A stretch of DNA of 22,576 nt, from NCBI RefSeq assembly GCF_000003605.2, contig NW_003118947.1:18346-40921 (forward strand), in the 5' to 3' direction. The notes under the pieces are model-generated. The model was given only the letters and a program-made list of their open reading frames with translations, did no database searches and was not told where the DNA came from. This document shows, piece by piece, positions 11,905 through 22,576 of this stretch. Both the position numbers and the translations under genes were made by a program. Each line of letters opens with the position of its first letter. Position 1 is the first letter of the stretch. Origin of the DNA: Saccoglossus kowalevskii (lineage: Eukaryota > Hemichordata > Enteropneusta > Harrimaniidae).

Positions 11905-11905
11905 A

Positions 11906-11968
<63 letters not shown>

Positions 11969-11993
11969 ACAAACAAACAAACAAATAAACAAA

Positions 11994-12072
<79 letters not shown>

Positions 12073-12073
12073 A
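11905..12073 (-). repeat. (TTTA)n tail of a LINE, with TTTG variants
   Basis: About 168 bp of AAAT tetranucleotide on the plus strand (TTTA on the minus strand) is interrupted once around 11967-11993 by AAAC copies. On the minus strand it follows the reverse-transcriptase frame directly, which is where a non-LTR retrotransposon carries its 3' simple-repeat tail. The FIYL-repeat open frames read through it are artefacts of the repeat. It was probably seeded by the retrotransposon and then expanded by slippage. Confidence 0.85.
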
Positions 12074-18818: not shown

Positions 18819-18945
18819 AAGGGCGGTGGTTGTCGCGCAGCGCGTGTTCGAATTTCTTGTAAATAAACAATGTATTTTACACGCGTTGTATACGTAGCTA
18901 TGAGTCCCATATCGAACAGAACGCGACGCGACGACAGCCACCCTT
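18819..18945. repeat. small inverted-repeat unit, MITE-like
   Basis: The left end (18819-18851, starting AAGGGCGGTGG) and the reverse complement of the right end (18912-18945, starting AAGGGTGGCTG) align at roughly 75 percent with small gaps, and both end in GTTCGA. The 127-bp unit is richer in CpG than its surroundings. Short size and terminal inverted repeats suggest a miniature inverted-repeat element, but no clear target-site duplication is visible. Confidence 0.4.
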
Positions 18946-19059
18946 TAATCTTCTTGAAGTTTTATATATGAAAACAGCATTTTACTGTGCCCACCATCTT
19001 CGCCAGCCAAGGACCATTTATTCGGTCTAATCCTCAACATTATTAGATTTACTTCGGCT

Positions 19060-19077
19060 CATTTGCATCACCCAATC
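19060..19077 (+). promoter_or_regulatory. octamer plus CCAAT box upstream of the peptide gene
   Basis: A perfect octamer ATTTGCAT (19061-19068) is followed three bases later by CCAAT (19072-19076). They lie about 70-80 bp before the ATG at 19143, a plausible promoter position. POU-domain and NF-Y factors bind such sites in animals. No strong TATA box is seen between them and the ATG. Confidence 0.4.
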
Positions 19078-19142
19078 ACAACTCAGATAGAAACGACAAT
19101 TACTTAACAAAACAATTGAAATTAAAATGGTGGAATATAGAA

Positions 19143-19283
19143 ATGAACGTGTTGCTAGCTTTTTCTCTGTTAACGAGCTTACTGACCATAACAGCGCTTA
19201 ATGCTGTATGTGAGGGAAATGATATAGGGACTATGTTGCAGGAAGACTTACGGTGGCCCATATATACAATCGGCGAAGAATGA
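19143..19283 (+). pseudogene. 5' part of a small secreted-peptide gene, cut by a transposon
   Basis: The ATG at 19143 opens a frame with a textbook signal peptide: MNVLLAFSLL followed by TSLLTITALNA, with likely cleavage after Ala21 or Ala18, then VCEGNDIGTMLQED. From residue 36 the reading enters the inserted element and adds LRWPIYTIGEE before a TGA at 19281-19283, so the present product would be 46 residues with a foreign tail. The first 35 codons belong to the host gene. Beyond the element the frame resumes at 21361, which supports disruption of one coding exon. Octamer and CCAAT motifs lie just upstream. The mature peptide is not recognised. A signal peptide is an inference from hydrophobicity and small residues at the cleavage site. 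Confidence 0.65.
19233..19248 (+). repeat. left copy of 16-bp flanking direct repeat (putative TSD)
   Basis: ATGTTGCAGGAAGACT directly precedes the element and matches ATGTTGAAGGACGACT after it at 14 of 16 positions. The outermost A and T could instead belong to the inverted repeat (TTACGG...CCGTAA), in which case the duplication is 14 bp with 12 matches. Confidence 0.75.
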
Positions 19284-19348
19284 CCAAATTTCGGCGATCA
19301 ATGACGCATTGCGACGACCAATAACCAATTACGACGATCAATGACGCA
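19249..19348 (+). repeat. left terminal inverted repeat, 100 bp
   Basis: Compared with the reverse complement of 21261-21360, one mismatch was found (GACCAAT against GATCAAT, near 19316). Identity stops exactly after GACGCA, where the left arm runs on into more 20-bp units. Confidence 0.93.
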
Positions 19349-19556
19349 TTGCGGCGAACAATAACGCTTGCGGCGATCAATAACGCATTGCGACGATCAA
19401 TAAAGCATTGCGAAGATCAGTAACGCATTGCGACGATCAATAACCAATTTCAGCTATCAATAACGCATTGCGACGATCAATAACGCATTGCGACGATCAA
19501 TAACGCATTGCGACGACCAATAACGCATTGCGACGACCAATGACCAACTTCAGCGA
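19271..19556 (+). repeat. 20-bp minisatellite in the element's left arm
   Basis: About 14 copies of GCGACGATCAATAACGCATT, with one 19-bp unit and a partial last unit. Variation is mostly GACGATC against GGCGATC or GACGACC, and ACGCATT against ACCAATT. The first four units are shared with the right arm. The rest are left-arm expansion. Confidence 0.95.
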
Positions 19557-19573
19557 TTTAGTTTAAAGGATGG

Positions 19574-19611
19574 ACCCACAATGCTTTGCACACTTCAATG
19601 GCGTCCGCCAT
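19574..19611 (-). promoter_or_regulatory. ZNF143/Staf-like and YY1-like motif pair inside the element
   Basis: ACCCACAATGCTTTGCA (19574-19590) resembles the ZNF143/Staf site core CCCA..ATGC.TTGC. On the minus strand ATGGCGGAC (19603-19611) resembles YY1 sites that overlap translation starts in animal genes, and it opens a 17-codon frame. The patch is less AT-rich than the rest of the element. An internal promoter is possible but is inferred from motifs only. Confidence 0.3.
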
Positions 19612-19742
19612 GTAGTCAACTCCGTTCGTCCACGAACTACAGCTTGTGTAAGTATTCGTTATATGAATAAATCCAAAATGCTAGAATCCATTGCTATGGC
19701 AAGCCAAGTGTTGCAATATTATTAAAAACAATTTTTTTTTTT

Positions 19743-19945
19743 AAATCCATATTTTATTCCACAAAACGCGATTTACATTTGTAAAATCCATATTTCATTC
19801 CATAAAACGCAATTTATGTTTGTAAATTCTATTTTACATTTCATAAAATATTATTTTATTTTCTAAAATTCGTATTTGATTTCATCAAACGTATTTCTGT
19901 TCAAAGAATTCCTATTTAATTATTCAGATGCCATTTTGTTGTGTA
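19743..19945. repeat. degenerate 41-bp tandem repeat
   Basis: Units begin near 19743, 19784, 19824, 19866 and 19906 with AAATCCATATTT-like or AATTC-TATTT-like starts followed by TTCCANAAAACG-like phrases. The first two are close and later ones increasingly diverged. It lies after a 12-T run. Confidence 0.7.
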
Positions 19946-20143
19946 CAATTTATATTCCATTCAGTACACAAATTTATATGTTTAAAAAAAGGTTGTCATT
20001 TTGTGTCATTCATTTTACTTCTGATACACCGAATTGTGTTTAGGGTAAATATATGTTTCAGTTCTGAATCAAAATTATTTCATTCGTGATTCTATATTGA
20101 TTCATAAACCGTAACAAACTTAGGGGGCCTACAATTGTATGCC

Positions 20144-20345
20144 GTCATTTTTGGTAAAAAGTGATATTTTCAACTTCTTTGATACTATACATATATGTAC
20201 CTCAGGTAGACCTTTTTCAGATTTGTTTATTTCGTGATATCTTAATTCTCTAATTTTAATGAATATTTTTGTCATTTTTGGTAAAAAGTGACATTTTCGA
20301 ATTATTGTTGAAAACAGCAAGCCCGATTGCTTGGATACTATACAC
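20144..20345. repeat. 127-bp-spaced internal duplication
   Basis: GTCATTTTTGGTAAAAAGTG begins at 20144 and again at 20271. Both copies are later followed by TTGATACTATACA or TTGGATACTATACA. The second copy carries about 24 extra bases between the two phrases. Confidence 0.75.
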
Positions 20346-20604
20346 ATTGTTCATTTTCTAATGATATCTTCAGTTCTTGAAATGTGCATTGCTAACAGCG
20401 TAGATATCTCATATTATATATTGTTATATCGTTAGTTATATCGTTAGTTATCAAATTTAAGATATATAGTTTTGTTTATAGTAATATAGCTGGAATATAA
20501 CCATGTCAGGAATATGATTGTTAACATTAAAATGATTGACATTTGTATCTGATCGTCAAACAAGTACTTGTCCATATTGAGAGGATTATTGCTCTGGAAC
20601 AGCA

Positions 20605-21260
20605 TTCAAAATCAGCCATTTTGAATACATGTATATATATAACATGATGTATAATGAATATATAAAATGTGAATATAATCAGTCAAAGCATTTAAGAGAC
20701 ATGGCTCTAGAACCCCAATCATTAAAGCAAAATGGCCGTCAGTCAGCCATTTTGAATCCAATCTGAAAAATAAAATGACATGCATCAGGAACCCGTAATG
20801 TCTAATGTATGTACCAAGTTTGAACGAAATCCATTCATAAATGCCAGAAATGCTTGATATTTGATGATTTTTTAGCACAAAAATGACTACCATTCGGCCA
20901 TTTTGAATAGGATCGTCATACCAATATATCTGTTTATCTATGACATGATGTATAATGAATATTTAAAATTTGAATATAATCAGTCAAAACAAGTCGGAGA
21001 TATGGGTCTAGAAGCCCATTCATTAAAACAAAATGGCCGCCAGACAGCCATTTTGAATCCGATCTGAAAAATAAATGATGTGCATCAGGAACCTGTAATG
21101 TCTAACGTATGTACCAAGTTTGAACGAAATCCATCCATAAATGCTTGATATTTGATGATTTTTTAGCACAAAAATGACCACCATTTGGCCATTTTGAATA
21201 GGATCGTCAAACCAATATATCTGTCTATCTATGACATGATGTATAATGAATATTTAAAAT
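20605..21260. repeat. tandem repeat of about 301 bp with GCCATTTTGAA motifs
   Basis: ACATGATGTATAATGAATAT recurs at 20642, 20943 and 21234 (spacings 301 and 291). The two complete units are roughly 90 percent identical, and the shorter lacks about 9 bp near 21143. The third is cut by the right inverted repeat, and a partial unit end precedes 20642. Each unit carries CAAAATGGC...GCCATTTTG, an inverted pair with 9-bp arms (20728-20736 and 20746-20754; 21029-21037 and 21047-21055), plus a further GCCATTTTGAA copy. No coding frame is supported. Confidence 0.9.
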
Positions 21261-21360
21261 TGCGTCATTGATCGTCGTAATTGGTTATTGATCGTCGCAA
21301 TGCGTCATTGATCGCCGAAATTTGGTCATTCTTCGCCGATTGTATATATGGGCCACCGTA
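21261..21360 (-). repeat. right terminal inverted repeat, 100 bp
   Basis: Reverse complement of the left arm. Its inner edge abuts a truncated third copy of the 301-bp repeat, showing where the interior array ends. Confidence 0.93.
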
Positions 21361-21376
21361 ATGTTGAAGGACGACT
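21361..21376 (+). repeat. right copy of 16-bp flanking direct repeat (putative TSD)
   Basis: ATGTTGAAGGACGACT follows the right terminal inverted repeat without a gap. The two differences from the left copy suggest decay since insertion, although the terminal repeats themselves are nearly identical. Confidence 0.75.
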
Positions 21377-21504
21377 GGATCGGTTTCTACAGTTTTGTCA
21401 GGTTACTAAAACACCGTTTGTACAAATATTTAGACATTCCGTCGTCTTCATTCACTTGCTCACAGACAATTTTCAACGTTGGAATAAGAAATTTTGGAAT
21501 ATAA
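21361..21504 (+). pseudogene. 3' part of the disrupted secreted-peptide gene
   Basis: Immediately right of the element the sequence reads MLKDD, the counterpart of MLQED left of it, then continues WIGFYSFVRLLKH and on to a TAA at 21502-21504. The frame is preserved across the duplicated target. If the element and one target copy are removed on paper, the uninterrupted frame would be about 77 codons with a signal peptide, one cysteine early (residue 23) and one late (about residue 63). Alternatively the first exon ends at CAG/GTTACT (21399-21407), a weak donor. An AATAAA lies at 21951-21956. Function is unknown. Confidence 0.5.
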
Positions 21505-21637
21505 TATAGACCTTCTGTTCGCGACTCCGGGAGAATCAGCGAGGATTAGCGTGCATATCATTAGCGTTGTTTTTGACACTCTTGAGATGAATTGCCGTCA
21601 TGTTAATATTCCTAGAATGCAAAGCGCCTCCCTTTGA

Positions 21638-21756
21638 ACGCATGCGCATAGGGATTGTGACACCGCCATTGTTTTAATCTGTGATGAGCTCCCCGACCCT
21701 CATATTTATGGTACAGCAATGCTGATTGGTGGCACCAGCTAATTGGCGCGCCCAAT
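21638..21756. promoter_or_regulatory. promoter-like patch: NRF1-like site and CCAAT boxes
   Basis: ACGCATGCGCA (21638-21648) is close to the NRF1 consensus GCGCATGCGC. Three CCAAT boxes follow: two inverted (ATTGG at 21725-21729 and 21742-21746) and one direct (21752-21756). The last two flank a CGCGCC core in a near-palindrome. Local GC and CpG content is raised. A TATAAAT lies at 21918-21924. NF-Y boxes clustered with an NRF1 site are common in animal promoters, but no adjacent gene is recognised. Confidence 0.4.
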
Positions 21757-21807
21757 CAAAAGACTCAATTCAACTGCAGTGAAATGCAGCTTTTCCTAAC
21801 ACGATCA

Positions 21808-21859
21808 CACACGGGTTCGTGGGCCGGTTATGAAAGGCCGGCTTTAGCGAAACCGTGCG
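21808..21859 (+). other. GC-rich nested stem-loop
   Basis: CACACGGGTTCG (21808-21819) pairs with CGAAACCGTGCG (21848-21859) at 10 of 12 positions. An inner stem GCCGG (21823-21827) pairs with CCGGC (21838-21842). It could be a structured transcript segment or an inverted repeat in the DNA. There is no RNA family I recognise. Confidence 0.35.
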
Positions 21860-22220
21860 ATTCGGACGATGTGTGCCCACATATGCACAAATAACGCGTT
21901 TTTATTCAATTGACGGTATAAATGGTATTTAAATACCTTGAGGACCACCAAATAAATTTACAACGCAATTATTTTCAAATTGTAATCATCGATTCTGACC
22001 TAAATTTCAATGATATTGTCAACATCGAAGTCTAGTTCTGTCTTCAATGTTCTGTTAGTTCATTTGAGCTTCATGTGTATTTCTAAGTTACGTGTCCAAT
22101 AATTAAAAAAAAATGTTAATATAATATTAATGACAATTGTTCAATAGTTAGTTGATAACGCAAGGTTCAATGTTCAATCATTCATTCAAGCTGGACAACA
22201 GCCGATATGTCGTGATCTGT
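21860..22220. other. non-coding stretch, nothing recognised
   Basis: AT-rich sequence containing the TATAAAT and the AATAAA already noted for neighbouring entries. No gene or other repeat was seen before the terminal minisatellite. Confidence 0.5.
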
Positions 22221-22576
22221 CAAGGTGCCGAAAATTACCAACGTAATACCTCTCTACCAAGGTGCCGAAAATTACCGATGTAATTTCTGTCTATCAAGGT
22301 GCCAACTATTACCAACGTAATACTTCTATGTCAAGGTATCGAATATTACCAACGTAATTACAAACGTAATTCCTCATTACCAAGGTGCCGAATATTACCA
22401 ACGTAATTACAAACGTAATTCCTCACTACCAAGGTGCCGAATATTACCAACGTAATTACAAACGTAATTCCTCACTACCAAGGTGCCGAATATTACCAAC
22501 GTAATACTTCTCTGTCAAGGTGACAAATATTACCAACGTAATACTTCTCTGTCAAAATGCCAACTATTAGCGATGT
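22221..22576. repeat. minisatellite mixing 37-bp and 49-bp units
   Basis: Units starting CAAGGTGCCGA begin at 22221, 22258, 22295, 22332, 22381, 22430, 22479, 22516 and 22553, giving lengths 37, 37, 37, 49, 49, 49, 37, 37 and a partial unit cut by the window end. The 49-bp form has an extra ATTACAAACGTA beside ATTACCAACGTA, a 12-bp internal duplication, and a different unit end (CCTCACTAC against CTTCTCTGT). Confidence 0.93.

Follow-up and report, generated by a model that had tools for sequence, protein, structure and literature searches.

The feature analysed here is a 2112-bp inverted-repeat element nested in one copy of a high-copy, decayed dispersed element in the genome of Saccoglossus kowalevskii. 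In the window, by which the whole analysed stretch of 22,576 nucleotides is meant, this copy of the host element, referred to as family A, spans positions 18995-21871. It is bordered on each side by a perfect 9-bp direct repeat, TGTGCCCAC, at 18986-18994 and again at 21872-21880, which putatively arose as a target site duplication when the host element inserted. The left part of the host element (18995-19248) begins with CATCTTCGCCAGCCAAGG at a sharp family boundary in the copy-to-copy alignment, and the right part (21377-21871), delimited by the same alignment, ends with GTGCGATTCGGACGATG; all of these features are given on the plus strand. Between the two parts lies the nested element (19249-21360, without assigned strand), which is flanked by an imperfect 16-bp direct repeat on the plus strand. 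Its left copy, ATGTTGCAGGAAGACT (19233-19248), and its right copy, ATGTTGAAGGACGACT (21361-21376), agree at 14 of 16 positions. No known RNA family was detected in the window at its gathering score, and a Pfam search with 7 of the 23 frames that were listed for the window at a length of at least 80 residues gave no match above the cut-off. Other repeats in the window comprise an (ATAA)n microsatellite of 42 units at 11905-12073, tandem 37- and 49-bp repeats (ATTACCAACGTAATTACAAACGTAATTCC) near the contig end at 22216-22569, and another dispersed repeat at 18819-18948, just left of the host element, which also occurs at the family A loci L007, L010 and L012 with 82-92% identity.

The nested element begins with TACGGTGGCCC and ends with GGGCCACCGTA. 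Its inverted ends of about 100 bp are 98-99% identical, with 99% identity over 101 bases or, in another register, 99 matches in 101. Tandem Repeats Finder reported 12.4 copies of a 20-bp repeat in the left arm (19295-19541, plus strand) and 2.1 copies of a 301-bp repeat further inside (20630-21261, plus strand). Long inverted ends in combination with short tandem repeats are found in foldback-like elements such as FB, Galileo and Tetris, and the nested element resembles these in both respects. It differs from them in its imperfect 16-bp flanking repeat, and no transposase was seen in it. In the assembly, seven ends of this element were found with at most three mismatches, five of them exact to the 29-base pattern. 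These ends derive from five copies, and both ends were seen only in the window copy and in a copy on contig C3, as the other three copies, on contigs C182, C1169 and C3686, lack a second end owing to runs of N or a contig end.

The host element is widely dispersed. Its left half has at least 40 matches in the 572-Mb assembly (40 of 83 candidates scored) and its right half at least 41 (40 of 124 candidates scored). The left end of family A occurs 155 times with at most three mismatches, compared to no occurrence of a reversed control. Both ends are kept in 25 of the 57 family A loci examined, the window copy included and loci with identical first 200 bases counted once. Among these 25 two-ended copies, the flanking 9-bp repeat is perfect in 15, one of which (L002) sits in an AT repeat; it matches at eight of nine positions in four copies, at seven in two, and at five, four, one and one in the remainder. 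In a first set of 16 out of 37 loci, the mean flank match was 0.90 at a length of 9 bp, as opposed to 0.21-0.35 at 5-8 and 10-12 bp. As the perfect repeats are of distinct sequence, the family shows the fixed-length duplications at distinct sites and the sharp ends that characterize MITE-like elements. As an inverted repeat, the two ends have only a few bases in common, with a CATCxTCxG-like similarity and a best local score of 18 in the first 120 bases. Sharp ends, 9-bp repeats and 155 left ends together are the signature of a mobile element and not of a gene. Two variations within the family were also observed. About 25 extra bases lie beside the insertion site in part of the copies (L014, L015, L005 and others); by eye, these bases look palindromic in several copies, TGTTGCAA ACACAGTCCCTCGACTG TGTTGCAA. 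At L035 on contig C1506, part of the right half is tandemly duplicated with a spacing of about 240 bp.

The preliminary description of this locus had placed the insertion in the coding frame of a small secreted peptide. What it read from the letters is correct. The frame from 19143 reaches MLQED, the nested element follows, and MLKDD is read directly after it in a frame that stays open to 21504. The two halves, joined without one of the repeat copies, give 77 open codons, and reading through into the element yields the 46-residue product that had been claimed. The expectation of a transposon insertion with paralogous empty sites was also borne out by the assembly search, since both halves adjoin in many sister loci with a spacing of about 35-90 bases. 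The frame itself is not unusual. When the 756 joined bases, seven of them flank, were shuffled 1,000 times with dinucleotides preserved, the longest frame reached at least 77 codons in 234 cases, and a frame of this length is therefore expected by chance. Start codon and frame are not conserved among the homologs either: the ATG of 19143 is present at 6 of 53 other aligned loci, these being the loci out of 56 offered that passed the score limit, L050 (see below) among them. Read from the position of this ATG, 20 of the 53 loci meet a stop within nine codons and 20 stay open for at least 36 codons, and translation showed that the long-open copies enter an older helicase frame.

A genuine small secreted-peptide gene that was broken by a recent insertion is accordingly extremely improbable, despite the 77 open codons of the restored site and the hydrophobic stretch at its start. 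The locus proposed as a peptide gene belongs to a high-copy element flanked by 9-bp repeats, its ATG is rarely shared, and the older helicase frame overlaps the peptide frame with a shift of one base. The supposed signal-peptide frame (19143-19248, plus strand) is best regarded as an out-of-phase reading of this helicase relic. The hydrophobic N-terminus does not indicate a peptide gene, and a recent gene loss does not follow, because the interrupted sequence belongs to a high-copy element.

In the window, the older frame begins at 19127 and is offset by one base from the frame that starts at 19143. It probably corresponds to the decayed start of a RecQ-type helicase (MVEYRNERVASFFSVNELTDH, then broken), which covers 19127-19248 on the plus strand, with a few more bases from 21377 onwards. 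In the window copy, the relic frame is broken by small deletions, and one base off, the relic start reads as the hydrophobic 'signal peptide'. Across the sister copies, of which 62 out of 70 offered were scored, the majority reading of the older frame is MAEYRNKRVASFFSVNELTDHQKKALSAVSEGNDVFVATKTGSGKSICY. A frame-shifting indel was found in 54 of the 62 scored copies, and mismatch rates to L050, a copy with an open frame, are nearly even across codon positions (0.123/0.105/0.149). An open majority reading, frequent indels and evenly distributed mismatches point to an open ancestor that was followed by drift. Sister copies match the Pfam DEAD model (cut-off 26 bits), with 29.8 bits for L050 and 26.4 bits for L002. 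A further match is to the beginning of the RecQ family model TIGR00614 recQ_fam, at positions 5-45 of 470; its score is far below the cut-off set for the whole protein, which is what a fragment should give. A search against solved structures gave weak fragment matches, the best with E-values of 0.0012 for L050 and 0.0083 for L002. For L050, 42 distinct sequences were retrieved up to E = 1, and the best ten were nine RECQ5 proteins and one YprA helicase, all of them weak (E 0.0012-0.0023). The best explanation of the locus, held with considerable confidence, is a nested insertion into a likely non-autonomous transposon, the interior of which likely represents, in decayed form, the first segment of the coding sequence for a RecQ-type helicase.

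A diverged sister element provides further information on this segment. Element B, formed by the loci L090 and L089 on contig C2518 (6170-6655), is complete with 486 bp, has the left end CATCTTCGCTAGCCAAGG and the right end GTGCAATTCGGACAATG, both similar to those of family A, and is flanked by the perfect 9-bp repeat GACATTTTA. This is the one copy of family B that was read; about 18 protein matches with 46-51% identity, the C2518 copy among them, are candidate members. Beyond the first 60 bases or so, its similarity to family A is modest, with a whole local score of 94, whereas 100 shuffles reached 73 at most. The ATG lies 173 bases from the left end in element B and 180 bases in the family A consensus. 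The coding piece of element B matches the RecQ model with 22.4 bits (E 4.6e-05); taken alone, it remains under the Pfam cut-off with 19 of 26 bits. Over 44 aligned codons, the identity between L050 and element B is 0.68, 0.68 and 0.11 at the first, second and third codon positions, a pattern at least as extreme as which was obtained in none of 10,000 permutations; 23 residues are identical, or 23 of 46 in the protein comparison. This pattern implies that both pieces descend from helicase genes that were functional while they were diverging. Similar ends, a similar position and selected coding sequence are together most simply explained by helicases encoded by the elements themselves.

The 16-bp repeat at the ends of the nested element allows more than one reading. 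Among 69 uninterrupted host loci, the flanking motif, searched with up to four substitutions in the form found in the sister copies, which an indel separates from the form in the window, occurs once in 55, is absent in 10, and occurs two or three times in four. As the motif is single in most uninterrupted loci, the repeat looks like a target duplication in the window, and both window copies abut the nested element exactly. The two mismatches in 16 positions, set against one or two in the 101 positions of the inverted ends, speak against a clean target duplication. So does the only other two-ended copy, L049 on C3, which lacks the 16-bp repeat and shows only GGAGTTC/GTAGTTC, with six of seven positions matching by eye. 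The nested element could instead have arrived by recombination or conversion, or the true duplication could be shorter, but we consider it unlikely that the 16-bp repeat is anything other than a target site duplication. Variable duplication lengths within one family also have a precedent in IS481EU, for which the available part of the published description reports discrete lengths near 4, 15 and 25 bp (PMC10045372). Provided that the direct repeats of the host and nested elements are target site duplications, both elements would have been mobilized in trans by a transposase encoded elsewhere.

The helicase segment probably stems from an autonomous transposon with a RecQ-like helicase gene of its own near the left end, with families A and B as internally deleted derivatives of two diverged helicase-encoding transposons. 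We tentatively propose, with less than even confidence, that both families descend by deletion from an undescribed lineage of animal DNA transposons, with CATC...GATG ends, 9-bp target duplications and a RecQ-like helicase of its own; purifying selection would have acted on this helicase in at least two lineages, and the copies that survive would have decayed afterwards. The assembly yielded no full-length element in which the ends of family A or B are joined to a helicase or transposase. Of the 46 RecQ-family matches (46 of 247 candidates scored) and the 12 MULE transposase matches over the cut-off in the assembly (23 of 23 candidates scored), not one was located within 50 kb of any of the 100 left ends listed out of 155, a comparison made by eye and limited by contig ends.

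A less probable, and on balance unlikely, source of the segment is gene capture. Here, a transposon with these ends would have copied the 5' untranslated region and the first codons of a host RecQ-type gene, as Pack-TIR or Pack-MULE elements do, and then spread. The locus L050 on contig C3825 (about 41574-41756, minus strand) has the look of a captured donor, as it carries the helicase segment of about 180 bp between unique flanks without element ends. It is the only one of the 70 loci compared that is confined to the helicase segment (consensus positions 159-335), and when the genome was searched with its flanks included, 39 other matches out of the 40 listed stay inside query positions 84-265 (40 of 159 candidates scored). 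The frame of L050 is open; it continues with NLV, as in family B, and its end reads ICYQNLVLSGS. Pack-TIRs are known from animals (PMC8277862). Against a donor gene at this locus, a simple pattern scan of the 49.5-kb contig found no helicase motif beyond Walker A, by which C3825 was ruled out as an intact helicase gene. Moreover, family B carries its diverged RecQ start at a nearly equal position, so that two captures of one segment would be needed, and the RecQ locus on contig C1550, which is split into five or more pieces, shares only 40% identity with the segment. As a separate observation, RecQ-like helicase matches on contigs C1306, C3659 and C8 lie in long frames of few pieces, unlike the locus on C1550, and are possibly transposon-borne.

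With regard to known transposon systems, the element-encoded helicase finds partial parallels only. Academ target duplications are 3-4 bp long, and AcademH transposons have reportedly been described from animals and fungi. The 9-bp repeats of families A and B differ from the short duplication length of Academ. The parts of the literature available to us report a RecQ helicase in Academ and KolobokH transposons (PMC3627910, PMC9587614), and what families A and B carry is an N-terminal RecQ-type fragment; a full gene was not found in the neighbourhood of the listed ends. Reports of KolobokH are confined to fungi, whereas both families occur in an animal assembly, and no transposase was seen in them. 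They share 9-bp direct repeats with non-autonomous MULE elements, which have duplications of about this length, but family A has no long terminal inverted repeat, and no MULE match lies near the listed left ends. Family A resembles Pack-TIR and Pack-MULE elements in being short and non-autonomous and in bearing a piece of protein-coding sequence between its mobile ends; it differs from them in having a diverged sister, element B, that bears the same gene segment at nearly the same place. The available part of a survey of 100 animal genomes reports Pack-TIRs and no Pack-MULE (PMC8277862). The host element family was not met in a literature search, in which the sequence itself cannot be looked up.

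For the host element, the sharp ends, the 9-bp direct repeats, the dispersal and the interruption by a second element are direct observations. The nesting of one element in a decayed copy of another, high-copy one is ordinary in kind, and the helicase relic together with the sister element B is the part that can best be followed further. The analysis removes a false lead, as there is no lost peptide gene and no hybrid peptide left to explain. In exchange, the order of nesting becomes clear, and the relic in the high-copy family points to a transposon that carried a helicase and made 9-bp duplications. Should the helicase piece have been captured, this would be a case of high-copy gene-fragment capture in an animal, possibly by a MULE, a class absent from one survey of 100 animal genomes as far as its available part reports (PMC8277862). 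If an autonomous copy is found, it would become possible to ask what role a RecQ helicase plays in DNA transposition.
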